A DNA stretch of 64,000 bases. Origin: Mesorhizobium sp. GTDB lineage: Bacteria; Pseudomonadota; Alphaproteobacteria; Rhizobiales; Rhizobiaceae. Position 1 is the stretch's first letter; the number at the start of each line of letters is the position of its first letter. The DNA lies in the NCBI GenBank assembly GCA_004017535.1, contig SAJS01000001.1, forward strand, positions 930,001 through 994,000. Direction: 5' to 3'. The position numbers were made by a program, and so were the translations under genes. A model generated the notes under the pieces. That model was not told where the DNA came from. It ran no database searches and saw only the letters and a list, made by a program, of their open reading frames with translations. Shown in pieces: positions 687 to 34,757 of the stretch.

Positions 687-711
687 AACATCCGGTTGCA
701 CCGAATGTTCC
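687..711 (-). promoter_or_regulatory. EcfG/RpoE2-type promoter for the SDR gene
   Basis: On the minus strand GGAAC (711-707) is followed 18 nt later by TT (688-687); the -10 element reads TGTT. It lies 26 nt upstream of the SDR start codon. It matches the GGAAC-N18-TT pattern known for the alphaproteobacterial general-stress sigma factor. Confidence 0.65.
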
Positions 712-761
712 TTGGGATCGGAGGATTTCAGCACGCCGAAACTGCAATGCCTTTGGCCGAG

Positions 762-787
762 GGAACCGCGCGGGCGCTCCGGCTGTT
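762..787 (+). promoter_or_regulatory. EcfG/RpoE2-type promoter for the 68-aa gene
   Basis: GGAAC at 762-766 and TGTT at 784-787, spacing one base longer than the usual 16 between the two elements. It sits 22 nt before the start at 809. The wider spacing makes it a slightly weaker match. Confidence 0.5.
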
Positions 788-808
788 GATCAGCAAGGAG
801 CAATGGCC

Positions 809-1015
809 ATGGGACTCTTTTCCGACCTGAACAAGAAGCTGACCGAAAACCTCTATGCCCATGGCAGCTATCTGAGCGACCCGAGCGCCGACCTGCCGCG
901 ACGGGTGGAGGAGACGGTCGATCTGCTGATGCCCTTCGTGAAGCCCGAAGCGCGGGAAACGGTGAAGCTGCAGATCCTCGGCATCATGCACGAGCACATC
1001 TTTGACGAGGAGTGA
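809..1015 (+). CDS. Small conserved-looking protein, 68 aa, function unknown
   Basis: I do not recognise a family. The product is soluble and mildly acidic, with an N-terminal MGLFSDLNKKL segment and a C-terminal helix ending IMHEHIFDEE; no signal peptide or membrane segment is visible. Two start codons are close together (803 and 809). AAGGAG at 795-800 is 8 nt before 809 but only 2 nt before 803, so 809 is preferred. It is divergent from the SDR gene and has its own EcfG-like promoter, which suggests a general-stress role. Confidence 0.7.
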   Translation: MGLFSDLNKKLTENLYAHGSYLSDPSADLPRRVEETVDLLMPFVKPEARETVKLQILGIMHEHIFDEE

Positions 1016-1260
1016 CTCCGGCGATCGCTCGGTTATCCGGAGACACCAACCGTCAGGATGCTTTTCATTCCGAACGCCGGGATCTGTGCTGCTTTTCAGC
1101 TTCGCGCAGCACCCGCACAATGGCGTCCACTGGAGAGGAGTGCGTTGTAGGCTGTGTTTTCCAGCGCCACAAATGGCGAAACAAACTTCTCAAGCTCGGC
1201 ATCGCAATAACCTCCTTGCGCTATCAAACCTGGGACGGCGAATGATGTTCCCTTTCATGC

Positions 1261-1578
1261 CTAGCGGAAGGCCGCTGCGAACAGAAAGGCGACCGCGGCC
1301 AGGACAACCAGCGCTACGATGACCAGGACCGGTCCGTTTCTGCGCGGCTCGAGGTGTGGCGCGTTCTCCGGGGGTCGCATCGCGTTGGCAAAGCTCGCCT
1401 GATTGGTGAAGTTCGGTTCGCGCGGCTCGGCCGGCGCAGCGGACGTCGAGACAGCACCGGCTTCGGCGTCTGCTTCCTGCGGTGCCGCCGCCGGATCGAA
1501 TCCGGGTGTCTTGTCTTGTGTCCTGCCGGCCTGGATTTCGCCACGGGCCTCGGCGGGTGTACGTTCGTCAGGTGACAT
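1261..1578 (-). CDS. Tail-anchored-like single-pass membrane protein, 105 aa
   Basis: The first 75 residues are hydrophilic and rich in Ala, Glu and Pro, hence probably disordered. The last 25 residues, beginning at NGPVLVIVALV, form one hydrophobic segment reaching almost to the C-terminus. This would place the bulk of the protein in the cytoplasm with a C-terminal anchor. The ATG at 1578 has AAAGGAGG just upstream; a longer reading back to 2046 would run into the divergent gene and is rejected. An EcfG-like promoter precedes it. No family recognised. Confidence 0.75.
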   Translation of the reverse strand: MSPDERTPAEARGEIQAGRTQDKTPGFDPAAAPQEADAEAGAVSTSAAPAEPREPNFTNQASFANAMRPPENAPHLEPRRNGPVLVIVALVVLAAVAFLFAAAFR

Positions 1579-1600
1579 TCGGCGCCTCCTTTGCTCCCCA

Positions 1601-1625
1601 AACCTGCATCTGGCCCCGCTGTTCC
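1601..1625 (-). promoter_or_regulatory. EcfG/RpoE2-type promoter for the 105-aa membrane protein
   Basis: Minus-strand GGAAC (1625-1621), 16-nt spacer, GGTT (1604-1601). It is 23 nt upstream of the start at 1578. Confidence 0.65.
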
Positions 1626-1650: not shown

Positions 1651-1675
1651 GGAACTTTCGGGACCAAGGCAGCTT
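1651..1675 (+). promoter_or_regulatory. Possible EcfG/RpoE2-type promoter, weak -10
   Basis: GGAAC at 1651-1655 followed 18 nt later by TT (1674-1675); the -10 reads GCTT, so only the last two bases fit. It is 33 nt upstream of the 164-aa gene at 1708. Confidence 0.4.
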
Positions 1676-2202: not shown

Positions 2203-2528
2203 TGGAGCCTAAGCCCGTGAACCACCCGACGATGAATCCCTTTATGTCGCTGCACGCGATGGCAGCCGCAAGGGGCGACGGGCTCCGGCCCGAGTTCCTT
2301 CGCCTGCTCGATGCGCGCGCGGCCATGTCCCATCCCGACGTGATCGAGCTTCACCGGGAGACGGGGTTGAACCAGGCCGGTCCAAATCCTGTTGGGGACC
2401 TCGAAACCGCTCCGAAGCAAAGCGTGGTGCGTTTCCCTGGCCGGCGGAGTATGATCAGCCGTGCGTCCGGAAGGGACGCCCCTGTCAGAGGAGGTCGCCA
2501 TGACAGCGCCCTTGGCACTGATCATTGA
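2202..2528 (+). CDS. Uncertain ORF, 108 aa, overlapping stop and start of its neighbours
   Basis: The ATG at 2202 overlaps the TGA of the preceding gene by one base (ATGTGATGG), a typical translational-coupling arrangement. The frame stays open for 108 codons but overlaps the next gene by 29 nt. Its last 30 residues are rich in Arg, Gly and Ser and look non-native. The first 75 residues (MEPKPVNHPTMNPFMSLHAM onward) are more protein-like. No family recognised. It could be a real coupled gene, a gene with a frameshifted end, or chance. Confidence 0.3.
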   Translation: MEPKPVNHPTMNPFMSLHAMAAARGDGLRPEFLRLLDARAAMSHPDVIELHRETGLNQAGPNPVGDLETAPKQSVVRFPGRRSMISRASGRDAPVRGGRHDSALGTDH

Positions 2529-2862
2529 AGACGAATATCTGATTGCGTCGGACGTGGCGAATGGCCTGAAGGAGCGAGGTTTCGAGGCGGCGTGCGTAGC
2601 GTCCGAGCGGGCAGCCGCGACTTGGCTGGATGATCACAGGCCGGACCTTGCCATCATCGATATCCAACTGCTCGATGGCCAGCGCGGTGTCGCCGCCGCC
2701 CGCCTCAAGGAAGCGGGCGTGCCCTTCGTCGTCCATTCGGGCTATGATCCGGAGTTCCAGTCGCCGATCTTCCACGGCGCGCCTTATGTGCCCAAGCCGG
2801 CGCCGATCCGGCGTCTGGTCGAACTGGCGAGCCAATTGGTAGGGGATCGCGCCGAGCAATAG
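2500..2862 (+). CDS. Single-domain response regulator (receiver only), 120 aa
   Basis: A stand-alone receiver domain. The acidic pair is in IIEDEYLIA, the phospho-acceptor is the Asp of AIIDIQLLDG, the switch-region motif reads VVHSGYD, and the conserved Lys is in PYVPKPAP. There is no output domain. The VHSGYD motif sits where the alphaproteobacterial FAT GUY receivers have FATGYD; those proteins typically shuttle phosphate from HWE/HisKA2 kinases in the general stress response. ATG 2500 has GAGGAGG upstream. It converges with the receiver gene of the CheB-CheR kinase operon. No EcfG promoter was found directly before it. Confidence 0.88.
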   Translation: MTAPLALIIEDEYLIASDVANGLKERGFEAACVASERAAATWLDDHRPDLAIIDIQLLDGQRGVAAARLKEAGVPFVVHSGYDPEFQSPIFHGAPYVPKPAPIRRLVELASQLVGDRAEQ

Positions 2863-2894: not shown

Positions 2895-3284
2895 TCAGCC
2901 CGACGCGGCATCACCTTTGCGGAACCCCGACACCGCCTCGATCAGCACCTTGTAGTCGACGGGCTTGGTTAGCTTCTGCGCGTCCCTGAATTGATCGGGG
3001 AAGACGGTGGCGCTGTCGTATCCGGTGAGAAAAATGAAAGGCACGCCGCCACGCGCCAGATGCTCGGCCAAAGGAAAGCTTCGCTCGCCGCGAAGATTCA
3101 CATCCAGCACGGCACCATCCAGGGCGACACTGTCCGCTTGCTCCAGCGCCTGTTGAACCGTGGGAACCGGTCCGACCACGGTGCATCCGGCACCGGTCAA
3201 CTGGTCGGCCAAGTCCTGCGCAAGCATGAACACGTCCTCAACCACCAGGACTTTCAGGCCGGACAAGAGTGTCTTTGTGTTCAT
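2895..3284 (-). CDS. Single-domain response regulator, FAT GUY-like, 129 aa
   Basis: Receiver-only protein. Acidic pocket in LVVEDVFMLA, phospho-acceptor Asp in GAVLDVNLRG, switch motif FIFLTGYD and conserved Lys in KLTKPVD. It starts 23 nt after the stop of the giant CheB-CheR-HWE kinase on the same strand, so it is almost certainly that kinase's cognate receiver. ATG 3284 is used because an upstream in-frame start (3350) would overlap the kinase gene. With no DNA-binding domain it should act by protein contact or as a phosphate shuttle or sink. Confidence 0.9.
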   Translation of the reverse strand: MNTKTLLSGLKVLVVEDVFMLAQDLADQLTGAGCTVVGPVPTVQQALEQADSVALDGAVLDVNLRGERSFPLAEHLARGGVPFIFLTGYDSATVFPDQFRDAQKLTKPVDYKVLIEAVSGFRKGDAASG

Positions 3285-3307: not shown

Positions 3308-6300
3308 TCAACGTTCCGTGGCGGGGACCAACGGTATCTGGATGTCGCACTCAAGCCCGGAGGGCTCGAACCGCAGGTCGACCTTCCCCCCAAGCTCATA
3401 CTCTAAACTTTGCTTGATAAAGCTTGTTCCGAAATTCAGTCGCGACGGCTCGTCTACGGCAGGTCCGCCGATTTCCTTCCATTGGATTGACAGAACACCC
3501 GATTTGTCGGTGCTCCAGGATACTTCGACGCGGCCGTCCTCGGTCGAGAGCGCGCCATATTTCGCCGCATTGCTGGCAAGCTCGAAGAACACCATGCCAA
3601 GTGTCGCGGCCATGCTTGCGCCGAGCTGCAGCGACTTTCCGTCAATGACGATGTTCTGGCGAAGCTTGCTGCTGTAGGGCGTCAGAACCGCCCGCAGCAG
3701 CTGCTCGAGATCGGCGTCGCGCCAGTTGTAGGAAGACAGCACTTCGTGTGTTCGGCCCATTGCCTGCAGCCGCTGCTGGAACGAGGAAAAGAAATCACCC
3801 ATTGAACTCGATGTGCCAACCATGCGTGAAGCCAGCGCGGTGACTGTGGCCAGGATGTTCTTCACGCGATGCTGCAGTTCGTGCAGCAATCTCTCCTGGC
3901 TGCGCTCCGCCTCCTTGTGGCTCGATATGTCGACAAGGGTCGCGATGGCGCCGCGCACCTTACCGTTTTCGTCAAAAAGCGGGTTGGCCGACATCATCAC
4001 GTCGATGCCCGAGCCATTCTCATGCAGGATTTGCGCTTCGTAGCCGGGGATTGGTTTTCCGGTGCGAATTGCCTTTCGCAGAGGCTGGTCTTCAGCGTCC
4101 ACCTTAACGCCGTTGAGTGTCAGCGGCAGGATGGCGGGAACTGAAATGAGCTTGTCGCCGGTGGAGTGCTGCCCCATCAGTTCCACCGCGCGGCGGTTTG
4201 CGCGGATCTCCGCGCCGTTGCCATCCTCGGCAATGAAAATGCCGACCGGCACCAGGTCGAGCAGGGTCTCGAGGCTTTCGACGCGGTTGCGCAGGTCGTG
4301 CGAGAGCACGCCGATCTTCTCCTCTGCCCGCGCGATCTGCGTGACATCGACAAAGGTGACGACGACGCCGGCAATGACGTTGTCGACGGTGCGATAGGGC
4401 AGGACGCGCATGATGTAGCGCCGGCCGCTGTCGGTACCCTCGACCTGCCGCTCGATGGTGCCAAGCCTCAGCAGCACCTGCTCCATGTCGGCCTGCAGCC
4501 CGTCGGCGGGGAAGCGCGGCCGCACATGCGCCAAGGGCCGACCGACATCGCTCTCGACCAGGCGGAAAAGGTCGCGGGCGGTCGGCGTGAAGCTCTTGAT
4601 ACAGAGGTCGCGGTCGAGAAACACGGTGGCGATCTGCGTGCTTTCGAGCAGGTTGGCCATGTCGTTGTTGGCGCGGCTGAGCTCGTCGACGCGAATGTTG
4701 AGCTCGGCATTGACCGTCTGCAGTTCCTCATTGATCGACTGCAGCTCCTCCTTCGAGGTTTCCAGTTCCTCGTTGGACGACTGCAGCTCCTCGTTGATCG
4801 ACGACAGTTCCTCGTTGGAGGATTTCAGCTCCTCATTGGAGGATTCGAGCTCCTCCGTGGTAATCTGCAGCCGCTCCTTGGTTTCCCTCAGCTCCCTTTC
4901 GAGCTGGCTGACATTGGCGCTTTCGACATCGTCGGTCGTGTGGACTGGCTCGCCCTCCGACTCCGCCTTGATGCCGCCGATGTCGCGGAAGACCAGCATG
5001 TAGAGCGGGTCCGCCGAGCCGTCGGAGGGCAACGGTTGCACGGCCAGGCTGATCGTCTGCCGGCCGCCGTTGGTGCCGACGGTGATCTTGTTCTGAATCG
5101 CCGCCTGTCCGGTGCTGGCCGCCTTGTGGAGCGCCGCGCGCAGGTCCATGCGAAGGCCCCGCCTTGCCATGGAAAAGACGTTGTGGTCGGGGGCGCCCGC
5201 GGCGAGCTCGAGATATTTGCCGGTGCCGCCCGAACTATGCATCAATTCGCCGCCGGCGTTGACCACCACATAGGCCGGCGCAAATCGCTCGACGAGAAGA
5301 CGCTCCGCCACTTCCTGCAAGGTTCCGTTCGTCGCCCGCTGCCGTGTATTCGGCGCGGTGTGCCTGGCGGCGGCGGCGAGCGGGAATTCCGGCAAACGCT
5401 GCGGGGTCATCCCGCCACGCTTCTGGAAGATGCGGCTGCCCTTGTCGACGGTGGAGAACAGGCGGGCGTGCCGCGTGACGTTCTCCGAGGATCCGAGAAA
5501 GAGATAGCCGTTGTTGCGCAAAGCGTAGTGGAAGATCGGAATGATTTTTTCCTGCAGTTCCGGGCCCATATAGATCAGGAGGTTCCGGCAGGTGATCAGG
5601 TCGAGCTTGGAGAAGGGCGGATCGCGCAACAGATTGTGCGAGGAAAACAGACAGACCTCGCGCAGGTCGGCCGAAACGCGGTAGGTGCCGTCCTCGCGCG
5701 AGAAAAACTCCTTGAGCCGCTTCGGCGTTATGTCCGTGGCGATCGTTGCGGGATAGCGCCCGGCGCGGGCCACCTCCAGCGCGCGCTCGTCGATATCGGT
5801 GGCGAAAATCTGCAGATTGGGCGAGGCGGCGCCCCGCGGAGCGCTCTCCTTCAAGAGCATGGCGATCGAATAGGCCTCTTCGCCCGTCGCACAGCCAGGC
5901 ACCCATACGCGGATCGTCTCGTCGGGCTTTCGGTTCTCGAACAGCCGGGGAATGACCAGCCTTTCCAGCACATCGAAGGCGTGCTCGTCGCGAAAGAAGC
6001 TGGTGACGCCGATCAGCAGGTCCTGGAAGAGCAGATCGACCTGCTGCGGCTCGTCGCGCAGCCGCTCGTAAAAGGCGATCGGGTCGTCGACCTGCAGCAC
6101 CTGCATCCGGCGCTGGATGCGGCGCAGGATCGTGTTGTCCTTGTAGCCGCTGAAATCATGGCCGGTGCGCACACGAAGCAGCGCCGCGATGCGCGAAAGC
6201 TGCTCGGCCACATCGCGCTTGCGGCGGTCGCGCTCGCCATCGGTATGGTTGGCGTGCCGGAAATAGCTGGTCAGCTTGCCCGCCATTTCCTCGGCCGGAA

Positions 6301-6886
6301 GCACCATGTCGACCAGGCCGCTCTGGACGGCGCTGCGCATCATGCCGTCATACTCGGCGCTCTCCTGCGCCAAGGTCAGGCCGCCGCGTTCCTTGATGGC
6401 TCTCAGCCCGATGGTGCCGTCGCTGCCAGTGCCGGACAGGATCACTCCCGCCGCGTTCTCCGACTGCTCCCGCGCCAGCGAGGTGAAGAAATCGTCGATC
6501 GGCGTCCGCCTGGCGCGCGTCGTGGCCATTTTGGCCATATGGAAATGCTGGCCACGCACCGTCACCGATACACCGGGCGGCGTGACGTAGATCTTGTCGG
6601 GCTCGATCTCCATGTCTTCGGCCGCCGTCAGGGTGTCGATCGAGGTCGACCGCTGGATGATGCTGGCGAGAACGCTTTCGTGCTCGGCATCGAGATGTTG
6701 AATGACCACATAGGCAAAGCCGCTGTCGGCCGGCACTTCTGGAAAGAATCGTTGGAGGGCCGCGATGCCGCCGGCCGACGCGCCGATGCCGATAATCGGG
6801 AAAGATGCCGCCGCCGTTGCGGCGGCCTCGCGCGCGTCGTTAGCCTTCGTTCTTGTCGTGCCTGTCTTCCTCGCCGCCCGCGCCAT
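3308..6886 (-). CDS. CheB-CheR-PAS-HWE hybrid histidine kinase, 1192 aa
   Basis: A multidomain signalling protein. Residues about 28-210 are a CheB methylesterase domain with its triad in GIGASAGG (Ser37), VIQHLD (His64) and GTGSDG (Asp156). Residues about 225-485 are a CheR methyltransferase with the SAM loop VPGCATGEEAYS and the LITCRNLLIYM motif. A long coiled coil of repeated NEEL/SSNEEL units (about 665-755) leads to two PAS-like domains and a C-terminal HWE kinase with phospho-His in ELQHRVKN and the W-x-E motif IQWKEIGGP. Unusually, the N-box reads FFELASNAAKYGAL where HWE kinases normally carry HELATNA. It overlaps the upstream CheB gene by 47 nt and is followed by a receiver gene. 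No chemoreceptors or other che genes are near, so a non-chemotaxis, stress-sensing role is inferred. Confidence 0.92.
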   Translation of the reverse strand: MARAARKTGTTRTKANDAREAAATAAASFPIIGIGASAGGIAALQRFFPEVPADSGFAYVVIQHLDAEHESVLASIIQRSTSIDTLTAAEDMEIEPDKIYVTPPGVSVTVRGQHFHMAKMATTRARRTPIDDFFTSLAREQSENAAGVILSGTGSDGTIGLRAIKERGGLTLAQESAEYDGMMRSAVQSGLVDMVLPAEEMAGKLTSYFRHANHTDGERDRRKRDVAEQLSRIAALLRVRTGHDFSGYKDNTILRRIQRRMQVLQVDDPIAFYERLRDEPQQVDLLFQDLLIGVTSFFRDEHAFDVLERLVIPRLFENRKPDETIRVWVPGCATGEEAYSIAMLLKESAPRGAASPNLQIFATDIDERALEVARAGRYPATIATDITPKRLKEFFSREDGTYRVSADLREVCLFSSHNLLRDPPFSKLDLITCRNLLIYMGPELQEKIIPIFHYALRNNGYLFLGSSENVTRHARLFSTVDKGSRIFQKRGGMTPQRLPEFPLAAAARHTAPNTRQRATNGTLQEVAERLLVERFAPAYVVVNAGGELMHSSGGTGKYLELAAGAPDHNVFSMARRGLRMDLRAALHKAASTGQAAIQNKITVGTNGGRQTISLAVQPLPSDGSADPLYMLVFRDIGGIKAESEGEPVHTTDDVESANVSQLERELRETKERLQITTEELESSNEELKSSNEELSSINEELQSSNEELETSKEELQSINEELQTVNAELNIRVDELSRANNDMANLLESTQIATVFLDRDLCIKSFTPTARDLFRLVESDVGRPLAHVRPRFPADGLQADMEQVLLRLGTIERQVEGTDSGRRYIMRVLPYRTVDNVIAGVVVTFVDVTQIARAEEKIGVLSHDLRNRVESLETLLDLVPVGIFIAEDGNGAEIRANRRAVELMGQHSTGDKLISVPAILPLTLNGVKVDAEDQPLRKAIRTGKPIPGYEAQILHENGSGIDVMMSANPLFDENGKVRGAIATLVDISSHKEAERSQERLLHELQHRVKNILATVTALASRMVGTSSSMGDFFSSFQQRLQAMGRTHEVLSSYNWRDADLEQLLRAVLTPYSSKLRQNIVIDGKSLQLGASMAATLGMVFFELASNAAKYGALSTEDGRVEVSWSTDKSGVLSIQWKEIGGPAVDEPSRLNFGTSFIKQSLEYELGGKVDLRFEPSGLECDIQIPLVPATER

Positions 6887-7895
6887 TGCCGCCTAACCGT
6901 GCTCGCCTGCTCTCAAGGATGCGCTCGATGACGGCGGCATCCGCTTCGTATTCCTGCGCCCGCTGGCCAAACTGATTGGCCAGTTCGGAGCGACGCCGTG
7001 TCTTTTCCCGCTCGGCCATCCGCCGGGCAAACTCCGCCCGCTGCTGATGCGAGCGAAGCAGGCCCCACAGGATCTCGTCCGCCTCGAGCGCCTGAGCCTC
7101 CATCACCGCGTCTGCGGTGAAGGCATGCCCGGTATGGCACCGATAGCGCAACATGTCACCGTCTTCGATCTCCCACAGCGGCCCGTGGCATTCCGGGCAT
7201 GTAAACACCGACAACTCGCCAAGTCGATCCGCGTCTTTCATGGTCGAATGCTCCTGCGCGGCGATGGCCGCCTCCAGTCTGACCGCCGGTGGGGCTGCGA
7301 AAGTTTCGCCGGCGGGCTCATCCGCGAGCTTTGCCAGCAAGGCGCCGACCTCTGCGGCGGGCACACAGTGGTCGACCTCGACATAATGCAGCGCGCTTTC
7401 CACCATGGAAGGCACCAGCGTGTCTTTGGGATGCTGGACTACCGCCAGCCCGCCGACGGCCTTGACGGCCCTCAACCCGGCGGTGCCGTCGGAAAGCGAG
7501 CCCGACAGCAGCACGCCGATGACGCTGGCGCCGTAGCTCAGCGCCGCCGAACGGAACAAGGGGTCGATGGCCGGCCGCGCGAGGTTTTCGCGCGGGCCGC
7601 GCCGCAGCATCATATGGCCATCGTGAAGGAGAAGATGGAAACCGGGCGGCGCCACATAGATGCAACCCATCCTGAACGCCGCGCCGTTCCTGGCCGGCTG
7701 CGCTTCGAGCCTCCCCGCACGGTCGAGGATATCCGGCAGATAGCTGACCTGGCCGACATGCACCACGACGAACACGGCTGCCGCCAGATCGGGGGGCAGA
7801 TCGGCGACGATCCGCTTCAGAGGCTCGATCCCGCCGGCCGACGCGCCGATGACGATGACGTTGTGGTTGTTCGTTGGGCCTTTGGAACGGGCCAT
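6840..7895 (-). CDS. CheB-type methylesterase with C-terminal Zn-ribbon-like extension, 351 aa
   Basis: Residues about 12-195 form a CheB catalytic domain with Ser19 (IGASAGG), His46 (VVVHVG) and Asp136 (GSLSDG). There is no N-terminal receiver domain, unlike classical CheB. The C-terminal part carries CPECHGPLWEI and YRCHTGHAF, a likely Cys/His zinc knuckle, followed by a charged helical tail. It is first in an operon with the CheB-CheR-HWE kinase (47-nt overlap) and the receiver at 2895. ATG 7895 has GGAGGC upstream. In rhizobia such stand-alone CheB proteins accompany CheR-fused kinases; the target glutamyl ester is unknown. Confidence 0.88.
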   Translation of the reverse strand: MARSKGPTNNHNVIVIGASAGGIEPLKRIVADLPPDLAAAVFVVVHVGQVSYLPDILDRAGRLEAQPARNGAAFRMGCIYVAPPGFHLLLHDGHMMLRRGPRENLARPAIDPLFRSAALSYGASVIGVLLSGSLSDGTAGLRAVKAVGGLAVVQHPKDTLVPSMVESALHYVEVDHCVPAAEVGALLAKLADEPAGETFAAPPAVRLEAAIAAQEHSTMKDADRLGELSVFTCPECHGPLWEIEDGDMLRYRCHTGHAFTADAVMEAQALEADEILWGLLRSHQQRAEFARRMAEREKTRRRSELANQFGQRAQEYEADAAVIERILESRRARLGGNGAGGEEDRHDKNEG

Positions 7896-12517: not shown

Positions 12518-12521
12518 GGTG

Positions 12522-27870: not shown

Positions 27871-27942
27871 TCCGGCTCTCTTCGGTTGCCACCGTCTTGT
27901 ATAGCCAGGGCCGAAATTTATCCGAGCCCGGAAAGAGTCGCT

Positions 27943-28418: not shown

Positions 28419-28425
28419 CGGCATC

Positions 28426-28653
28426 ATGGATGATCTGCGCTCGCATCGCATCCAGCTCGACCTGGAACGTCTTCTCCAAACCCGCCGACGCGCGGAGCGT
28501 CTGGTCGGCGAAACCGGTTCGGCTATCGCCAGAAGTCGGATTTTGCTGCGGCAGTCCCGACTGTTGCTGGCCAAGATCGGGCGGGACAGAAGCCTTGATC
28601 CGCCTTGGCGAAATGCTCAAGGCGCCCGGCCAGAAGCGCGCAGCCAGAAATAG
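28426..28653 (+). CDS. Small basic helical protein, possibly leaderless, 75 aa
   Basis: MDDLRSHRIQLDLERLLQTR continues as an Arg/Leu-rich helix (GSAIARSRILLRQSRLLLAK), then a polar tail. The predicted transcription start coincides with the ATG at 28426, and there is no ribosome site, so leaderless translation is likely if the promoter is real. It ends two bases before the convergent DUF982 gene stop. No family recognised. Confidence 0.55.
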   Translation: MDDLRSHRIQLDLERLLQTRRRAERLVGETGSAIARSRILLRQSRLLLAKIGRDRSLDPPWRNAQGARPEARSQK

Positions 28654-28655
28654 CG

Positions 28656-28940
28656 TCAGGCTTGGTCGCCCACGAAAATCCTGGCGTCCTTTGCGGCGTC
28701 TACGAAAGCCTGGCGCGCCACGCGTGGCGGCTTCTCGTCCCGCAGCACCGCAAGGCACGCCCTGATGGCGTGATGACGGGCGCGGGAGTTGGGCTTCGGC
28801 CAGGTATGCAGAAGGACGTCGGCCGCATCCAGCACAGTGACCACCACCCGATCACGATCGATCCGGCCGGGCTGCACGATAACCGGTTTGCGAAAACGTT
28901 TGATGCGTTTTGGGCGCATGATCGCTTTGCCGCTCACCAT
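28656..28940 (-). CDS. DUF982 family protein, 94 aa
   Basis: The core RVVVTVLDAADVLLHTWPKP and HHAIRACLAVLRDEKPPRVA, followed by ARQAFVDAAKDA, matches DUF982, a small rhizobial family of unknown function. The N-terminal 22 residues are basic. ATG 28940 is chosen; an in-frame ATG at 28919 is possible, and neither has a strong ribosome site. Two Crp/Fnr-like inverted repeats 34 bp apart lie immediately upstream. Confidence 0.75.
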   Translation of the reverse strand: MVSGKAIMRPKRIKRFRKPVIVQPGRIDRDRVVVTVLDAADVLLHTWPKPNSRARHHAIRACLAVLRDEKPPRVARQAFVDAAKDARIFVGDQA

Positions 28941-28977
28941 TCGCCCAAAGAGAAGCGCTCAATCTCCGCCGCCATCA

Positions 28978-28991
28978 ACAACCTATGTTAA
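28978..28991. promoter_or_regulatory. TTAAC-N4-GTTAA-type inverted repeat (site 5)
   Basis: ACAAC-CTAT-GTTAA; centre about 45 nt upstream of the DUF982 start. Confidence 0.45.
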
Positions 28992-29011
28992 GGCAGCGGC
29001 GCAATCATCGT

Positions 29012-29025
29012 GCAACATAGGTTGG
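29012..29025. promoter_or_regulatory. TTAAC-N4-GTTAA-type inverted repeat (site 6)
   Basis: GCAAC-ATAG-GTTGG, the reverse orientation of site 5's core with perfect CAAC/GTTG arms, 34 bp from site 5. Confidence 0.4.
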
Positions 29026-29171
29026 CCTTTGTCCCTCACTTAGGCCAGGCCCGGCCTGCAATCCTGTGTCACGGACGAAAACGCAGGTCGGGCTTCATCC
29101 GTACGGGTCATCGCGAGCGGTCAGCGTGCTCAAGACACCAACGACCGATGTGCGGTCTCCGTTCCGACAGC

Positions 29172-29196
29172 GGAACATTTGATCCTTTCACCGGTT
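29172..29196 (+). promoter_or_regulatory. EcfG/RpoE2-type promoter for the 53-aa membrane protein
   Basis: GGAAC at 29172-29176, 16-nt spacer, GGTT at 29193-29196; 60 nt upstream of the start at 29256. Confidence 0.65.
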
Positions 29197-29255
29197 AGCG
29201 GACGACCGGCGACCCTGCTTGCGGGAGCACAGCCTCGATCCGGGAAGGAAGCTCA

Positions 29256-29417
29256 ATGTCAGGCACCGACTTGTGGTTCATCGTCGTCGCGGGCGGTCCC
29301 CTCATTCTCATGGTCGTGATCGTCTACGTTCTCCTTACCCGCCGTCGCCGCGGACCGGCGGAGCGGCGCGAGAGCGACAGGGGGGCCGAACGCTTGTACC
29401 GGGAGGAAGGCGACTAG
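29256..29417 (+). CDS. Single-TM small protein, 53 aa
   Basis: MSGTDLWFIVVAGGPLILMV begins a membrane helix that extends through VIVYVLL, followed by a basic, charged cytoplasmic-type tail (TRRRRGPAERRESDRGAERL) and EEGD at the end. AAGGAA precedes ATG 29256. Positive-inside topology puts the C-terminus in the cytoplasm. No family recognised. Own EcfG-like promoter. Confidence 0.65.
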   Translation: MSGTDLWFIVVAGGPLILMVVIVYVLLTRRRRGPAERRESDRGAERLYREEGD

Positions 29418-29465
29418 CGCTCCTGTCCTGGCGAAGATCGTCACAAAAAGCGGGACGTCGGGCGT

Positions 29466-29490
29466 GGAACAACGCCGGACCGCCGCTGTT
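29466..29490 (+). promoter_or_regulatory. EcfG/RpoE2-type promoter for the nucleotidyltransferase/phosphoesterase pair
   Basis: GGAAC at 29466-29470, 16-nt spacer, TGTT at 29487-29490; 44 nt upstream of the start at 29535. Confidence 0.65.
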
Positions 29491-29534
29491 TATCGAAACA
29501 GGTGGATGAGGATGAAACGCCGGAGCAACGGTTG

Positions 29535-30341
29535 ATGGCCAATGACGAGTTGCCGGGAGTGCTGGCGACGCTGCCGGTTATCGATGCGAAGGCGGAGCCG
29601 ACGCTGAAGAGCGCGGAGGCGGAAGCGTTCTACACGCATGCGATCCGCGAGCTTGCCGCCACCGACATTCCGTTTCTGGTTGCTGGGACCTATGCCGTCA
29701 GCGCCTATACCGGCGTCGTGCGCCAGACCAAAGACCTCGACATCTTCTGCAAGCCCGGCGATTGCCCACGCATCCTCACCCATTTCAAGGATATCGGCTA
29801 CGCCGTAGTGATCGAGGATGACCGCTGGCTGGGCAAGGTCTTCGAGGGCCCGCATTTCTTCGACGTGATCTTTGCCTCGGCCAACGGGACCATGCAGGTC
29901 GAGGATCAGTGGCTGGAACATGCCCGCCAGGCCGAGCTGCTGGGCAGCCGGGTCAGGATCATCGCGCCGACCGAGCTCATCTGGTCGAAATGCTTCATCC
30001 AGGACAGGGGCCGGCATGACGGCGCCGACATCGCCCATACCATCCTCAAGGCGCATGAGCAGATCGACTGGCAAAGATTGCTCTTCTACCTCGACACCCA
30101 CTGGGAGGTGCTCTTGATGCAGTTGCTGAATTTCAGATGGATCTATCCCAGCGAACGCGACCACATCCCCGACTGGCTGCTTGACAATCTGCTCGACCGG
30201 CTCGCCAGGCAGCGGCAACTCCCTTCGCCGAGGATGAAGATCTGCCGCGGCCGGCTTTTGTCGCAGGTCGACTACGAGATCGACGTCAAGGAATGGGGCT
30301 TCGCCGGCGTCGGCGGCGTTGGAGAATTCCGCGATGGCTGA
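29535..30341 (+). CDS. Nucleotidyltransferase-fold protein, 268 aa
   Basis: The segment DIPFLVAGTYAVSAYTGVVR followed by QTKDLDIFCKP has the Gly-containing first helix and the Asp-x-Asp pair (Asp67, Asp69) of the MNT-type nucleotidyltransferase fold, here with a later Asp in FFDVIFA. The C-terminal half is helical and unrecognised. The ATG at 29535 is chosen; a GTG at 29502 is a possible earlier start. It overlaps the phosphoesterase gene by 8 nt, so they form an operon under an EcfG-like promoter. The substrate is unknown. Confidence 0.75.
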   Translation: MANDELPGVLATLPVIDAKAEPTLKSAEAEAFYTHAIRELAATDIPFLVAGTYAVSAYTGVVRQTKDLDIFCKPGDCPRILTHFKDIGYAVVIEDDRWLGKVFEGPHFFDVIFASANGTMQVEDQWLEHARQAELLGSRVRIIAPTELIWSKCFIQDRGRHDGADIAHTILKAHEQIDWQRLLFYLDTHWEVLLMQLLNFRWIYPSERDHIPDWLLDNLLDRLARQRQLPSPRMKICRGRLLSQVDYEIDVKEWGFAGVGGVGEFRDG

Positions 30342-31083
30342 ACAAAGCAGGACGGGCCGCAAAGCGAACGGCAACGGCAAGGTCAAGATTGCCGCCATGG
30401 GCGATCTGCATGTTCAGGAGGATGCGCAGACTTCCTACCGCGACCTGTTCGGCGAGGTTTCCCGAGAAGCGGACGTCCTGGTGCTCACCGGCGATCTCAC
30501 CAATCTCGGCAAGCCGAAGGAGGCCGAGCTGCTCGCGGAGGATTTGCGCGCCTGCTCCATTCCCGTGGTCGGCGTGCTCGGCAATCACGACTACGAATCC
30601 GGTTGCGTCGACCAGATCGCGGCGACGCTCCGTCAGGCAGGCGTCTATCTCCTCGATGGACAGGCGACGGAGCTGATGGAAGTCGGCTTTGTCGGCGTCA
30701 AGGGTTTTGTCGGCGGCTTCGGCTCGAGGATGCTCGGCTCCTTCGGTGAGCCGGCGATCAAGGCCATGGTGGCCGAGAGCGTCAACGAGGCGATGCGGCT
30801 CGAGAACGCCATGCGGCAGGTCCGCGCCAAGCGCACGCTGGTGGTGCTTCACTATGCGCCGATCGCGGAGACGGTCGCCGGCGAGCCGCCGGAAATCTTT
30901 CCGTTCCTCGGATCGTCGCGGCTTGCCGAAACGATCGACCGGTTCAAGGTGAGCGCGGTCGTGCACGGCCATGCCCACCGTGGCACTTTCGAGGGCCAGA
31001 CCCCCGGCGGCGCTAAAGTGTACAACGTCGCCATGCACATCACGAAGCCGACGGGCCGTCCCTACGCGCTGCTGGAAATCTGA
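30334..31083 (+). CDS. Calcineurin-like metallophosphoesterase, 249 aa
   Basis: All five metal-ligand motifs are present in order: GDLHVQE (Asp24, His26), GDLTNLG, GNHDYE, VLHYAP and GHAHRG. These bind two metal ions for phosphoester hydrolysis. The protein is soluble and lacks a signal peptide. ATG 30334 has GGAG upstream and overlaps the end of the nucleotidyltransferase gene; a TTG at 30319 is less likely. Coupling to a nucleotidyltransferase suggests that the two act on a common nucleotide or RNA-end modification, which is inference. Confidence 0.85.
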   Translation: MAEQSRTGRKANGNGKVKIAAMGDLHVQEDAQTSYRDLFGEVSREADVLVLTGDLTNLGKPKEAELLAEDLRACSIPVVGVLGNHDYESGCVDQIAATLRQAGVYLLDGQATELMEVGFVGVKGFVGGFGSRMLGSFGEPAIKAMVAESVNEAMRLENAMRQVRAKRTLVVLHYAPIAETVAGEPPEIFPFLGSSRLAETIDRFKVSAVVHGHAHRGTFEGQTPGGAKVYNVAMHITKPTGRPYALLEI

Positions 31084-31086
31084 ACG

Positions 31087-31380
31087 TTAGACCTCGTCAA
31101 AACGGCTACCTTCCTTGGAAGGGTCCCTCGACAGGACGCGTTCTTCTTCGTCATCAGGCAAGGCTTCGTCGCTGTCCTGGAAGGGGTTGTCGTCATCCTC
31201 TTCCGGAAGGTCGCCTTCCGCTTCGGCATCGTCCTGCGGATCACCGTTCACGGCGACGCTGTCAGGCAGGATCCTGCTGCCCTCGAGAGCGTCCCAGTCC
31301 TGCTGTTCGATGGTAGGCGCTTCGGTTTCGTCGGTCTCTGCTGGCCGCTGTTTGTCGCGCGGGTCCATGACGTTCTCCAT
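31087..31380 (-). CDS. Very acidic small protein, 97 aa
   Basis: Dominated by Asp and Glu (EAEGDLPEEDDDNPFQDSDE, EERVLSRDPSKEGSRFDE), probably disordered. ATG 31380 is used; an internal ATG at residue 5 exists. It ends three bases from the convergent phosphoesterase stop. An EcfG-like promoter lies 20 nt upstream. No family recognised. Confidence 0.65.
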   Translation of the reverse strand: MENVMDPRDKQRPAETDETEAPTIEQQDWDALEGSRILPDSVAVNGDPQDDAEAEGDLPEEDDDNPFQDSDEALPDDEEERVLSRDPSKEGSRFDEV

Positions 31381-31399
31381 TGCTGAGCTTCAAGTGAAG

Positions 31400-31424
31400 A
31401 ACCTCTCGCCGAAACAGTTGTTCC
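31400..31424 (-). promoter_or_regulatory. EcfG/RpoE2-type promoter for the acidic protein
   Basis: Minus-strand GGAAC (31424-31420), 16-nt spacer, GGTT (31403-31400); 20 nt upstream of the start at 31380. Confidence 0.65.
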
Positions 31425-31462
31425 GCTTCATATCCAATCACGGATGGTGGCGCGGTTGCCCC

Positions 31463-31487
31463 GGAACAGCACGGCGCCTTGTGACTT
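31463..31487 (+). promoter_or_regulatory. Possible EcfG/RpoE2-type promoter, weak -10
   Basis: GGAAC at 31463-31467 then TT at 31486-31487 with N18 spacing; the -10 reads ACTT. 24 nt upstream of the FAD oxidoreductase start. Confidence 0.4.
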
Positions 31488-31510
31488 ATCGTGGCGAACC
31501 GGGAACTTTC

Positions 31511-32722
31511 ATGCCTCGCCAGCTCGATCTCAGAAGCGGCAAACCTGTCTGGTCTGCCTATCGCTCGCCCGCGGTGCCGGCGGAACGCCTGACCCGAGAT
31601 GCAAAGACCGACGTCCTGATCGTCGGCATGGGCATCAGCGGCGCGATGATGGCCGAAGCTTTGACCCGCGACGGCCACGCCGTCATTTGCATCGACAGGC
31701 GTGGGCCGTTGCAGGGCTCGACGGCCGCGACGACGGCGCTCGTCGAGTTCGAGATCGATCAACCGCTAACAAGGCTGTCCAGGATGATTGGAGGCGATGC
31801 CGCGCGGCAGGCCTGGATCCGCTCGCGGCTGTCGCTGCTCAACCTACGCGGACGCATCGCGGAACTCGATATTCGCTGCCGGTCGGCGGAGACGCCGTCG
31901 CTCTATTTGGCCGGCAATCGGCTCGATGCACCGGAGCTGCGCAGCGAGACGGAAGCGCGTCGTGAGTTGGGCATTGAGGCGTCCTTCCTGACACGCAAGA
32001 AGCTGAGAGAAGATTTCGGGATAGATCGCGCCGCGGCGATTCTGAGCCACGGCAACCTGGCGCTCGATCCACGCAAATTGACGTCCGGACTGCTCCTGAG
32101 GGCGCTGCAGCGCAAAGCGCGTTTCTATGCGCCGGCGGAAGCGATCGCGATCGAGGACAATCACCTCCGCGTGACGGTGGCGACGCGCCACGGTCCGAGG
32201 ATACATGCTCGCCATCTTGTCCTTGCGACCGGCTACGAGCAGCTCGATATCGTGCCGAGGACCGGCCATCGCATCATCTCGACATGGGCCATTGCCACTC
32301 GGCCGCAGCCGGAGAAGATCTGGCCGCTCGCCGCCCTGATCTGGGAAGCTTCAGACCCTTATCTCTATCTCAGGGCGACATCCGATGGTCGCGTGATCTG
32401 CGGCGGCGAAGACGAGGAGTTCACCGACGAGGAGAGGCGTGACGCCCTGACCGCGAAAAAGAGGGACCGACTTGAGGAGAAACTCGGCAAGATCTTCCCG
32501 CGACTCGACACGGCTGCGGAATTCGCCTGGACCGGCTCGTTCGGAGCCACCGATACCGGACTTCCGATTATCGGCAGTGTGCCCGGCCGCCCGCGCGTTC
32601 ATGCGGTGATGGGCTACGGCGGAAACGGAATAACGTTTTCACAGATCGCGTCCGAGATCGTCTCGGCTTCCATCGCCGGCAAGGAGGATACGGATGCGAG
32701 CCTCTTCGCGTTCAAGAGATGA
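31511..32722 (+). CDS. FAD-dependent oxidoreductase (DAO superfamily), 403 aa
   Basis: The FAD Rossmann motif is VLIVGMGISGAMMAEALTRD (about 35-55), followed by CIDRRGPLQGSTAATTALVE, a DAO-family feature. C-terminal GATDTGLPIIGSVPG and VMGYGGNGITFSQIASE bind the FAD pyrophosphate/isoalloxazine region. The ATG at 31511 is chosen; the much longer frame from 31115 overlaps the divergent acidic-protein gene. A weak EcfG-like promoter is just upstream. The amine or amino-acid substrate is not predictable. Confidence 0.82.
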   Translation: MPRQLDLRSGKPVWSAYRSPAVPAERLTRDAKTDVLIVGMGISGAMMAEALTRDGHAVICIDRRGPLQGSTAATTALVEFEIDQPLTRLSRMIGGDAARQAWIRSRLSLLNLRGRIAELDIRCRSAETPSLYLAGNRLDAPELRSETEARRELGIEASFLTRKKLREDFGIDRAAAILSHGNLALDPRKLTSGLLLRALQRKARFYAPAEAIAIEDNHLRVTVATRHGPRIHARHLVLATGYEQLDIVPRTGHRIISTWAIATRPQPEKIWPLAALIWEASDPYLYLRATSDGRVICGGEDEEFTDEERRDALTAKKRDRLEEKLGKIFPRLDTAAEFAWTGSFGATDTGLPIIGSVPGRPRVHAVMGYGGNGITFSQIASEIVSASIAGKEDTDASLFAFKR

Positions 32723-32767
32723 TCCTCCAGGCAGATGATCCTTCAGGCTATCCTCCGACAGATTGGG

Positions 32768-33781
32768 CTACGCGATCTGCTCGAACGTGCACTGCCGCGG
32801 CGCCTTGTCCGGCCGCCAGCGCAGCAACCTCGTGCCATGCCGGAAGCGCTCACCGGTGACATGGTCGAAACGAACCTCGACGACCAGGTCCGGCTTCACC
32901 GGCTCCCATTCACCGCTGCGCTCTGTGCTCCAGCGGCTCGGACCGCCCGGCGCCTTGCCGGTGAAGCCCGGCCCTCCGCGCAAAGCCTCGAGCTTCGCCG
33001 TGAGCGCCGCGCGGTCTTCATTGGCGATGGTCGACGTGAAGCCGACGTGATCGAGCTGCCCATTGTCATTGTAGAGGCCGAGCAGAAGCGATCCGACCTG
33101 CCGTTTGCCGTTCAGATAGCGGAAGCCGCCGACCACGCAGTCGGCCGTGCGCAGCCGCTTGACCTTGACCATCGCGCGCTCGCCCGGCCGATATGGCTCG
33201 TCGAGCATCTTGGCGACGACACCATCGGTCGAGCCGTGGCCGGCGCCTTGCAGCCATTGCCTGGCGGTGGCGACATTGGTGGTGGAGGGCGACAGCTGGA
33301 GGCCGGGATTGGCCGCCTTGGACAGAAAGGCCTCCAAAGCCTCGCGCCGGGCGCGCAAGGGTCGTTCGAGCATGATCTTGCCTCCCGGGGCGACCAGCAT
33401 GTCGAACAGGATCAGCCGCGCCGGCGTCGCGATGCTCAGCTTGCGGATACGGCTCTCCGCGGGGTGCAGCCGCATCTGCAGCGCGTCGAAGGAAGCGCGA
33501 CCGTCGATCTCGATGACGATCTCGCCGTCGACGACGAAATCCTCCGCATCGAGGCTCTGCATCATCGCCATCAGTTCGGGAAAGTAGCGGCCAAGCGGCT
33601 TTCCGGATTTCGCCCTGAGATCGACTGCCTTGCCGTCCTTGAAGGCAAGGCAGCGGAAGCCATCCCATTTCGGCTCGTATTGCCAGGGACCATCTCCCTC
33701 CGGCAACGCTTCCGCCGTTCGCGCTTCCATCGGCGGCGTTTCCAATGGCAACGAGAAGTCGTTGCGAGCCGCCGCTACCAT
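32768..33781 (-). CDS. ATP-dependent DNA ligase, LigC/LigD-ligase type, 337 aa
   Basis: The adenylation motif I is EPKWDGFRC, with Lys as nucleophile (about residue 38). VVDGEIVI is motif III, DGVVAKMLDEPYRPG motif IV, and MVKVKRLRTADCVVGG motif V. An OB-fold domain follows (about 215-337). No polymerase or nuclease domains and no Ku gene are nearby, so it is a stand-alone LigC-like enzyme that may seal breaks in stressed cells. The start at 33781 overlaps the upstream GFA-type gene by 7 nt; it has a GGAAG ribosome site. Confidence 0.88.
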   Translation of the reverse strand: MVAAARNDFSLPLETPPMEARTAEALPEGDGPWQYEPKWDGFRCLAFKDGKAVDLRAKSGKPLGRYFPELMAMMQSLDAEDFVVDGEIVIEIDGRASFDALQMRLHPAESRIRKLSIATPARLILFDMLVAPGGKIMLERPLRARREALEAFLSKAANPGLQLSPSTTNVATARQWLQGAGHGSTDGVVAKMLDEPYRPGERAMVKVKRLRTADCVVGGFRYLNGKRQVGSLLLGLYNDNGQLDHVGFTSTIANEDRAALTAKLEALRGGPGFTGKAPGGPSRWSTERSGEWEPVKPDLVVEVRFDHVTGERFRHGTRLLRWRPDKAPRQCTFEQIA

Positions 33782-34206
33782 CGTTCTTCCGTCTCATGGT
33801 GCGGCAGGTCGATGCCGCAGCAGACCCACCCGAGCCGTTGCGAGGAACCGTAATTATGACGCGGCTCAAGCCCGGACGGATCGTCGAAGGTCCCGATATG
33901 CATCGCGACCTCGTACGGGTTCGCGTCATAGGCAAGGGTAAGAGGCGTACCGCAGGATTGGCAGAAGCTTCTGCGGGCAATCGGCGAGGAGCGGCGATAG
34001 GCTGGTTCCGTGGTCAGCCATGAGAGGCCGGCGACAGGCGCCCAGCCAAGCACGGCGAAGGCGCTCCCGGTCGCGCGCCGGCACATATCGCAATGGCAGT
34101 AATGCACGCGCGGCTCTGCCGTCAGGCAGTAGCGGATGTTGCCGCATAGGCAACCGCCGTATCGCTCGACGGCTGCGTTACGCGTAAAGACATCCGCATG
34201 TTCCAT
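33775..34206 (-). CDS. GFA-family Zn protein (S-(hydroxymethyl)glutathione synthase-like), 143 aa
   Basis: Zinc-binding cysteines are in GGCLCGNIRY, HYCHCDMCRR and FCQSCGTPL, the pattern of the GFA / Mss4-like family. Glutathione-dependent formaldehyde activation has been proposed for the type member, but most relatives have unknown roles. ATG 34206 starts MEHADVF; the ribosome site is weak. It overlaps the ligase gene by 7 nt, and both follow the PPC-domain gene on the same strand. No own GGAAC promoter was found, so read-through from 34697 is possible. Confidence 0.85.
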   Translation of the reverse strand: MEHADVFTRNAAVERYGGCLCGNIRYCLTAEPRVHYCHCDMCRRATGSAFAVLGWAPVAGLSWLTTEPAYRRSSPIARRSFCQSCGTPLTLAYDANPYEVAMHIGTFDDPSGLEPRHNYGSSQRLGWVCCGIDLPHHETEERW

Positions 34207-34253
34207 CAAGCTTGAACGCTCGATCGAAGATGCGGTTTCGATAGCGCAATATT

Positions 34254-34697
34254 TTACGCGTCGAGATCGATCAGGGCGATGCCGAGGCCCGGTCGTTTCG
34301 TGCGCCGCAAATGCACGGGCGATTCCGTCACCGTGACTTCGAGGGTCGGCTTCACCACGCCTTCCAGCAGGTGCCCGCCGCGGGTCGATCCGTCGCTCAG
34401 GCCCAGCACCGCATGCAGATGCAGGCTTGGCTTGCCGCTGTCGTCGACGGCGACGTCGCCGATGGCGCTCAGCACCTCGCACTGCTCGTCGACCGGTAGC
34501 TTGCGGTAGGATTTCGAGCCGAGATCGAACCAGCCGACCGTTGCTCTTTCGAAAGCGCCGATTGCCGTCAGCGAGGCGCCGGTAATTCCCTTCTGACCGG
34601 CGAAGGCGGTGAGGGACGCGAAGGCTTCCTCGCCCGGATCGAGCACGACCACGAATATTCTTTGTCCCGAGGTTTCGGCGACGATTTTCGATTTCAT
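34254..34697 (-). CDS. PPC/DUF296 domain protein, 147 aa
   Basis: A single PPC domain (DUF296), which in plants is linked to AT-hook DNA-binding proteins and in bacteria forms trimers of unknown function. Diagnostic segments are FVVVLDPGEEAFASLTAFAG, SLTAIGAFERATVGWFD, SLHLHAVLGLSDGSTRGGHL with probable metal-binding His residues, and LEVTVTESPVHLRR. GAAGGGC precedes ATG 34697. A GGAAC-N16-AGTT promoter lies 36 nt upstream. It heads a likely operon with the GFA and ligase genes. Confidence 0.88.
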   Translation of the reverse strand: MKSKIVAETSGQRIFVVVLDPGEEAFASLTAFAGQKGITGASLTAIGAFERATVGWFDLGSKSYRKLPVDEQCEVLSAIGDVAVDDSGKPSLHLHAVLGLSDGSTRGGHLLEGVVKPTLEVTVTESPVHLRRTKRPGLGIALIDLDA

Positions 34698-34732
34698 GAT
34701 GCCCTTCGCATGCAGCGGCGGTCCCTGCGCAA

Positions 34733-34757
34733 AACTCACGGACGGGACGCATGTTCC
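34733..34757 (-). promoter_or_regulatory. EcfG/RpoE2-type promoter for the PPC-GFA-ligase operon
   Basis: Minus-strand GGAAC (34757-34753), 16-nt spacer, AGTT (34736-34733). It is the last such promoter I see in the window; none was seen upstream of genes further right. Confidence 0.6.

Follow-up and report, generated by a model that had tools for sequence, protein, structure and literature searches.

The sequence analysed here, referred to as the window, is a 64,000-nucleotide stretch of a Mesorhizobium sp. draft genome of 6.86 Mb and corresponds to C11:930001–994000 (contig 11; the genome is labelled G000 where relatives are compared). Its left part belongs to a block of genes, most of which lie close behind sites that resemble promoters of EcfG-type sigma factors. 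The block spans C11:~904.6–964.8 kb (window about −25,400 to 34,800), ~60 kb with 67 called genes; the 34-kb island proposed in a preliminary description of the window was too short, as ~25 kb of the block lies to the left of the window. That outer part contains a glycosyltransferase/epimerase gene run (assigned by eye), a secondary EcfG-type gene, here named EcfG2, and, outermost, a transporter gene.

The pattern GGAAC-N18-TT occurs 33 times in window 1–34757 and not once in 34758–64000, in agreement with the earlier statement that none was seen upstream of genes in 35–64 kb. The clustering seen in the preliminary description is thus real, and its tally of 27 sites (25 with N18 spacing) was an undercount. 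Its chance expectation of two or three sites is matched by 100 dinucleotide shuffles of 1–34757, which gave 3.0 ± 1.8 N18 sites (maximum 8). The longer form GGAAC-N17-GTT was observed 27 times against 0.7 in shuffles. The other spacings from N12 to N24 gave 1–7 matches each, except N19 with 13, eight of which reuse the GGAAC of an N18 site that continues into TTT. Directly downstream of GGAAC, A is the most frequent base, followed by A or T, and the last three bases of the −10 are GTT in 27 of the 33 sites. The sites combine the features of EcfG-type promoters: a GGAAC −35, a GTT −10, fixed spacing and a position upstream of genes. Of the 42 sites in C11:900–966 kb, 38 are in intergenic DNA, and for 31 a called gene starts no more than 150 nt downstream; within C11:904–965 kb, 31 of 41 transcription units, comprising 56 of the 67 called genes, have a site within 350 nt. 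Most units, rather than nearly every one as first proposed, are equipped in this way, and the 20–60 nt distance to the start codon, once ascribed to almost all sites, applies to 19 of 33 after adding small open reading frames (ORFs) and two corrected gene starts. The sites in the window are as follows, in window coordinates and with the fraction of intact copies where counted.

687–711, minus strand: −10 TGTT, SDR gene (motif, position, conservation)
1227–1251, minus strand: conserved 45-aa ORF begins 24 nt downstream; intact 4/4
1601–1625, minus strand: for 1261–1578
1651–1675, plus strand: −10 CTT, DUF6894 gene 1708–2202
3406–3430, minus strand: within kinase gene 3' end, upstream of receiver 2895–3284; intact 4/4
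7982–8006, minus strand: cheB-like and CheB-CheR-HWE kinase genes; intact 4/7
8052–8076, plus strand: divergent, for 8237–8668
9449–9473, minus strand: CGTT, REC-sigma2 gene; intact 6/6
9515–9539, plus strand: divergent, for 9575–10382; intact 5/6
10787–10811, minus strand: −10 ATT, DUF2934 gene
10845–10869, plus strand: for 10895–11209; intact 6/6
11227–11251, plus strand: 126-aa protein 11338–11718; intact 9/9
12142–12166, minus strand: for 11807–12100
12493–12517, minus strand: for 12266–12469; intact 11/11
16312–16336, minus strand: thiamine-pyrophosphate enzyme gene, then (43 nt on) PCMT-erythromycin esterase gene
17400–17424, plus strand: before conserved 62-aa ORF
17683–17707, plus strand: before conserved 56-aa ORF
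17938–17962, plus strand: CGTT, katE; intact 4/5
20124–20148, plus strand: tandem, upstream of 20346–20609; intact 5/5
20284–20308, plus strand: for 20346–20609; intact 2/4
22270–22294, minus strand: DUF4142 and YflT-like genes
22645–22669, plus strand: for 22687–23519 (isochorismatase-fold)
23561–23585, plus strand: tandem, upstream of 23920–24855
23771–23795, plus strand: −10 ATT, upstream of 23920–24855
28394–28418, plus strand: possible 75-aa ORF downstream (one ortholog only)
29172–29196, plus strand: 53-aa protein
29466–29490, plus strand: nucleotidyltransferase-like and metallophosphoesterase genes
31400–31424, minus strand: acidic 97-aa protein
31463–31487, plus strand: −10 CTT, FAD oxidoreductase
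34733–34757, minus strand: last site, PCC-domain gene, ATG 35 nt downstream
16219, 18544 and 18848: three intragenic N18 matches, poorly conserved

In 133 aligned orthologous copies, the seven motif bases are 98% identical, compared with 87% for the spacer, 84% upstream and 89% downstream. The motif is intact in 107 of 114 copies of the 30 credible sites and in 10 of 19 copies of the intragenic matches at 16219, 18544 and 18848; site 34733, with no relative to compare, was left out. About 30 of the 33 sites look real.

The clustering extends to the whole genome. The pattern GGAACAW-N15-GTT has 105 genomic sites, compared with 15 for the reversed pattern. Among the 100 sites listed of these 105, 26 fall in the block, where 0.9 are expected (~28-fold), and 77 fall in nine clusters (at least three sites, gaps up to 12 kb) that together cover 173 kb or 2.5% of the genome. 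Random placement put 6.7 sites in clusters on average and 24 at most, so that the regulon-like sites are mostly clustered genome-wide. The genome-wide scan that had been suggested as a check thus confirms a density far above average, and the block is the largest of about nine clusters rather than a unique one. Other clusters lie at C1:71–104 kb, C1:136–158 kb, C71:27–46 kb, C33:298–323 kb, C9:2–11 kb and C6:53–75 kb; some have paralogous genes in common, two copies on C1 being 88% identical. Outside the alphaproteobacteria, 15 of 18 loci with homologues (Massilia, Cupriavidus and others) have 0–2 N18 sites, the exceptions being Lysobacter (4), an actinomycete (3) and Dictyobacter (6), with 0.8–2.7 expected; Mesorhizobium loci in the same comparison have 3–27.

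The EcfG2 gene (C11:906832–907353, also given as 906877–907353) lies near the left border of the block, outside the window. Its product scores above cut-off for Sigma70_r2, Sigma70_r4_2 and PhyR_sigma2, the domain composition of an EcfG (ECF15) factor, and is 48% identical to the core factor EcfG1, which is encoded beside NepR and PhyR on contig 73. EcfG2 is not beside phyR or nepR, the sole NepR match in the genome being at C73:161583; being away from the only NepR, it is regarded as a secondary copy, as in Rhizobium etli and Sinorhizobium meliloti. Beside EcfG2 (C11:907364–907531) lies a gene for a 55-aa protein whose family matches nothing in Pfam; its paralogs are at C1:104422 and C33:307193. 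A CGTT-type site is found just upstream of the C11 and C33 copies and not of the C1 copy; CGTT promoters for all three paralogs were dropped as a candidate because the C1 site is downstream of its gene.

The abundance of sites follows the presence of EcfG2. An EcfG1-type gene was found in 19 of 19 genus genomes searched and EcfG2 (at least 67% identity) in nine of the 19, one of which (G012) was counted as positive from a 54-residue fragment at a contig end. The excess of sites is 22–90 in the nine genomes with EcfG2 and −3 to 31 in the ten without (Mann–Whitney p = 5e-4, or 9e-4 without the G012 fragment, both uncorrected for shared ancestry). One relative, G004, has three EcfG2-type genes on its contig 1, 97, 90 and 67% identical, which suggests repeated gain or duplication. 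Ten plasmid loci around EcfG2-like genes were chosen by hand from 265 matched records. Nine have 8–21 N18 sites against 1.2–3.8 expected, and that of R. etli 8C-3 has two; seven control stretches from the same plasmids have 0, 0, 4, 4, 5, 7 and 10 (p = 0.01, with overlapping ranges). Around the EcfG-type gene on p42f of R. etli CFN42, which is taken to be the published ecfG2, there are 19 N18 sites against 3.7 expected, and there are 23 against 3.8 in a plasmid stretch of Shinella that was selected for katE and the REC-sigma2 gene (see below). By their annotations, the plasmid loci share varying subsets of a gene menu: ferritin-like, isochorismatase-like, GFA, DNA ligase, Crp/Fnr, HWE kinase and receivers.

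The base before GTT separates two forms of the −10. At the core phyR-nepR-ecfG1 locus it is C in eight of eight sites; in the island it is C in 3 of 34 (p = 1.4e-6 between the two), so most island sites lack the C that marks the canonical EcfG1 promoter. The three exceptions precede the REC-sigma2 gene, katE and the 55-aa gene beside EcfG2, and the two within the window (9449–9473, minus; 17938–17962, plus) are exactly those named earlier as perfect GGAAC-N16-CGTT. C was counted at 18 of 107 sites in seven non-core clusters and at 66 of 200 in the genome outside the counted clusters; the C6 cluster and C71:27–40 kb were left out of the −10 counts comparing core and island. The C content of the island is below background (binomial p = 0.002). 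Eight plasmid loci outside the genus with a secondary EcfG-type gene (from Martelella, Agrobacterium fabrum, Paracoccus, Shinella, R. etli CFN42, S. meliloti, Rhizobium ACO-34A and Chelatococcus) have C in 7 of 90 sites (p = 7e-7 against 29%). The first four have none in 57, and CFN42 p42f has two in 15, i.e. 13 of 15 non-C. An Ensifer stretch (L205; C in 6 of 32) was excluded because it has no EcfG match; with it the set had been 13 of 122. The two −10 forms are clear between core and island, and less clear as a private code. From the C-poor island, the C-poor secondary loci and the published R. etli results, we propose that EcfG2 may read GGAAC-N16-[G/A/T]GTT.

A second distinctive element of the block is the product of 8738–9340, named REC-sigma2 here, which consists of a receiver (residues ~1–116) and an EcfG/PhyR-like sigma-domain-2 piece (130–191). 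By sequence profiles, the receiver matches SdrG, PhyR and other receivers. Its best structure matches are 2lpm, which we take to be Sma0114, and 5ieb (SdrG), and its motif FVFFSGYD fits the FATGUY type by eye. Residues 130–191 match 5uxx_A and 123–193 match 1h3l_A; the two chains carry the name RNA polymerase sigma factor, and 5uxx is an EcfG–NepR complex. The Pfam PhyR_sigma2 score is 27.8 bits against a cut-off of 27, and four relatives reach 21–25 bits at the same place, below cut-off. A search with the sigma piece also picks up the EcfG genes at the loci of Shinella and Martelella, which lie 360 nt and 1.1 kb, respectively, from the REC-sigma2 gene. Asp-56 and Lys-101 are invariant in 17 aligned members, an alignment that omits the receiver-only L122, L123 and L125 and the Martelella, Shinella and Ensifer relatives. 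The gene was matched in 13 of 199 family genomes (full-length in 10 of 199, including this one), and nine plasmid records cover at least 80% of the query. An AlphaFold model built from seven near-identical sequences had a mean pLDDT of 48 and was not used.

REC-sigma2 resembles PhyR, an anti-anti-sigma factor with a sigma-like domain and a receiver, in having a PhyR/SdrG-type receiver and a sigma-domain-2 segment. It differs in that the receiver precedes sigma domain 2, sigma domain 4 is missing and the sigma piece also matches ECF (extracytoplasmic function) sigma factors; it thus departs from the PhyR-family architecture. It also resembles the FATGUY single-domain response regulators, by its best structure matches and by F-x-x-x-[ST]-G-Y motifs seen by eye in the receivers at 2500, 2895 and 8738, and differs from them in its extra sigma-like domain. 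FATGUY regulators (SdrG, MrrA, Sma0114) and their role are treated in the available part of PMC5964349. In our reading, kinases may act through REC-sigma2 on EcfG2 or on the anti-sigma factor of EcfG2.

The remaining genes of the block that lie in the window, apart from those described only by their sites, are listed together with REC-sigma2 below.

2–661, minus strand: SDR gene, truncated at the window edge; complete gene at C11:929876–930661
2500–2862, plus strand: single-domain receiver, PhyR/FATGUY-like
2895–3284, minus strand: single-domain receiver, FATGUY-like
3308–6886, minus strand: CheB-CheR-PAS-HWE histidine kinase
6840–7895, minus strand: CheB methylesterase-like
8738–9340, minus strand: REC-sigma2 protein
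10543–10746, minus strand: DUF2934 small protein
11338–11718, plus strand: 126-aa protein, signal-like N-terminus by eye
12522–14483, minus strand: PCMT-erythromycin esterase fusion, 653 aa
14526–16286, minus strand: thiamine-pyrophosphate enzyme
18001–20115, plus strand: katE, long catalase
20895–22237, minus strand: YflT-like and DUF4142 genes
25029–26117, minus strand: PAS-HWE histidine kinase
26117–27310, minus strand: Crp/Fnr-type regulator
29535–31083, plus strand: nucleotidyltransferase-like (below Pfam cut-off) and metallophosphoesterase genes
32768–34206, minus strand: ATP-dependent DNA ligase and GFA-family genes
34254–34739, minus strand: PCC-domain protein, last gene of the block

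Domain matches support the earlier assignment of two HWE kinases to the island (3308–6886 and 25029–26117). They also support receivers at 2500 and 2895; the supposed plain receiver at 8738 is the fusion described above. Many small undescribed proteins had been predicted, and several small proteins indeed have no Pfam family. The 45-, 62- and 56-aa ORFs that follow sites are conserved, with changes mostly at third codon positions and no frameshifting gaps. The site at 11227 was considered as the promoter of a non-coding RNA, which was ruled out by the 126-aa ORF starting at 11338 (the first call, 11551, was too late); because the ORF begins there, the conserved hairpins upstream form a leader. 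This leader (11257–11337, plus strand) has two hairpins that are conserved (z −4.6); across 10 sequences 95.5% of cells are paired, and three pairs have changed on both sides; the number of pair types is not above that of shuffles, and no Rfam match was found within it. Judged from its predicted fold, it is possibly an RNA regulatory leader. At 27369–27463 (plus strand) there is a weak Rfam match to the Brucella small RNA CI27 (RF02600; 42.5 bits against a cut-off of 59.8, E 4e-6), with no N18 site within 900 nt. To the right of the block, window 35202–63998 holds what look by eye like genes for amino-acid/hydantoin-type catabolism and transport, and zero N18 sites.

The block is conserved within Mesorhizobium. 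Its 67 genes are represented by 56 in G004, 66 in G229, 59 in G231, 61 in G228 and 50 in G233, and 46 are common to all five relatives, which keep the gene order (the last four genomes were found via loci L024, L026, L023 and L028). The first 16 matches listed for the 653-aa protein are all from Mesorhizobium, 79–95% identical. In G004, block gene order is kept over C11:904716–961087 and synteny ends outside; G228, G229, G231 and G233 have the identical left border, and in G229 and G231 homology extends to the last block gene (964254). At the left edge of the six genomes, compared by eye, homology starts some tens of nucleotides upstream of the first EcfG-type site and reaches further upstream in four of them. 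The left flanks (14–50 kb fetched) are alike only in G000 and G228, one of 15 genome pairs. On the right, several genome pairs are alike over 4–14 kb: a cytochrome-oxidase cluster of ~12 kb is common to G004, G228 and G233, G229 and G231 are alike over ~12 kb, and G228 is alike with each of these over ~4 kb (an oxidoreductase). Because of these common flanks the right border is ragged. All that G000 keeps of this flank is one feature:

35085–35195, plus strand: right-hand scar, a 112-bp coxC fragment fused to the start of the oxidoreductase gene

This scrap is matched in G004, G228, G231 and G233, and the right end of the block in G000 is a deletion scar. A simple one-site insertion was not retained, given this scar and the partly shared right flanks. 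No tRNA was found, and inspection of the left border by eye, made without integrase models or a search for end repeats, showed no integrase. A plasmid copy of the whole block was dropped as a candidate, as none of the records in the plasmid collection covers 80% of window 1–25000. As a conserved unit, the block has a sharp border on the left and a ragged one on the right, and any past movement may have been by transfer or by rearrangement. It resembles rhizobial genomic islands and accessory replicons in being discrete, in its sharp common left border with different left flanks and in the related gene menus on plasmids; it differs in being marked by promoter type, in its ragged right border and in the lack of a tRNA and of an integrase recognisable by eye.

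On balance, the block is probably an accessory stress-regulon island of Mesorhizobium, with EcfG2 near its left end mainly reading GGAAC-N16-[G/A/T]GTT promoters. Since the −10 avoids the C of the core, an accessory and probably EcfG2 regulon is preferred to the consolidated general stress regulon of the preliminary description, of which the promoters, their clustering and the kinases stand. In the proposed mechanism, HWE kinases would sense stress and activate the core PhyR-NepR-EcfG1 switch. This switch, together with the inputs of the island (two HWE kinases and three receivers, one of them fused to sigma domain 2), would release or raise EcfG2. EcfG2–RNA polymerase would then read mainly GGAAC-N16-[G/A/T]GTT promoters and induce catalase, DNA ligase, enzymes of protein repair and other enzymes, the glycosyltransferase gene run and many small proteins. 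EcfG1 may be connected to the island through the CGTT sites at katE, the REC-sigma2 gene and the small gene next to EcfG2.

Several observations weigh against this reading. Four genomes without EcfG2 (G008, G009, G010 and G018) have C in 12 of 35 sites near katE, i.e. 23 non-C; because EcfG2-less genomes keep such sites, EcfG1 or another ECF factor may read them, and a strict EcfG2-only reading of non-C sites was not kept. Three Mesorhizobium plasmid EcfG2 loci are not C-poor (C in 11 of 26), and the R. etli 8C-3 locus has zero GGAAC-N17-GTT sites. The EcfG2 label is loose outside the genus, the CFN42 factor being 47% identical to EcfG2 and 46% to EcfG1 and the Shinella factor 52% and 49%. The C counts at 31 core loci of the genus (246 of 258) and in the island of the five relatives (12 of 143) come mostly from orthologous copies and are not independent. 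In S. meliloti, rpoE5 is RpoE2-dependent and RpoE5 overexpression yielded one putative target, according to the part of PMC6180224 available. The right flanks shared between genomes add to this: with a ragged right border, no tRNA found and no integrase seen by eye at the left border, any mobility of the block is hypothetical.

Much of this fits an alternative in which the island is a clustered part of the ordinary EcfG1 (PhyR-NepR) regulon, with EcfG2 as a minor amplifier and a −10 base that varies by drift or promoter strength. It draws on the EcfG1-type gene in every genus genome searched, the non-C sites of EcfG2-less genomes, the mixed Mesorhizobium plasmid loci and the behaviour of S. 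meliloti rpoE5. It is nevertheless rather unlikely, given the contrast between island and core, the depletion of C below background in the island and in the secondary loci of other genera, the site excess that tracks EcfG2 presence and the preference of the R. etli factors for their own promoters in the available part of PMC3892343. A further alternative, that both EcfG factors read overlapping sets of real sites and that tandem or divergent promoters grade the responses with no dialect, is improbable: more than one site does lie upstream of 20346 and of 23920, Mesorhizobium plasmid loci have mixed −10 bases and, in the same part of PMC3892343, the two R. etli regulons have 11 genes in common, but the total absence of C in the Martelella, A. 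fabrum, Paracoccus and Shinella loci speaks against it. Chance or a compositional artefact, with sites picked out from a GGAAC common at this GC content, could invoke the mere seven fixed bases and the three poorly conserved intragenic matches, and is refuted by the shuffles, the empty rest of the window, the strong enrichment at N18 spacing only and the conservation of the sites.

Secondary EcfG sigma factors with accessory regulons are of an already known kind. In the parts of PMC3892343 and PMC6180224 available, R. etli EcfG2/PF00052 and S. meliloti RpoE5 (ECF15) are likewise accessory EcfG-type factors away from phyR-nepR with a GGAAC −35, and no EcfG2 motif or regulon island is described. 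R. etli EcfG2 also has a largely separate regulon, and CGTT is given there for EcfG1 with no motif for EcfG2 targets (PMC3892343, same part). Here, in contrast, the factor lies near the edge of a conserved 60-kb motif-bearing block for which a C-poor −10 is proposed. What appears to be new, as judged from sequence comparison, is the CGTT form of the core against the C-poor form of the island, the proposed EcfG2 promoter and the putative receiver–sigma fusion; among the papers listed by a literature search, judged from titles and abstract openings and with most subscription papers outside it, none described an island of EcfG promoters, a motif for EcfG2 or a protein of the REC-sigma2 type.

In the portion of the 2013 R. 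etli study available (PMC3892343), extra EcfG copies were not satisfactorily explained and no EcfG2-target motif was found. The island supplies a specific motif, a list of targets and a genomic context for this question, and the CFN42 p42f stretch, with its predominance of non-C sites, makes it testable in a laboratory strain. The island also exemplifies a regulon that is conserved as one block and recognisable by the type of its promoters, and REC-sigma2 represents a receiver family through which kinases could act on a second sigma factor. A broader view, possible and at present doubtful, is that each EcfG2 island is a second general stress response, transferable and partly self-governing, that would carry its own sigma factor, −10 dialect (GGAAC-N16-[G/A/T]GTT), targets, HWE kinases and receivers and sometimes REC-sigma2, a reversed mini-PhyR that would couple kinases to EcfG2 or to the anti-sigma factor of EcfG2. 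If true, this would help to explain the extra EcfG copies in roughly half of the alphaproteobacteria whose genomes were surveyed in 2013.

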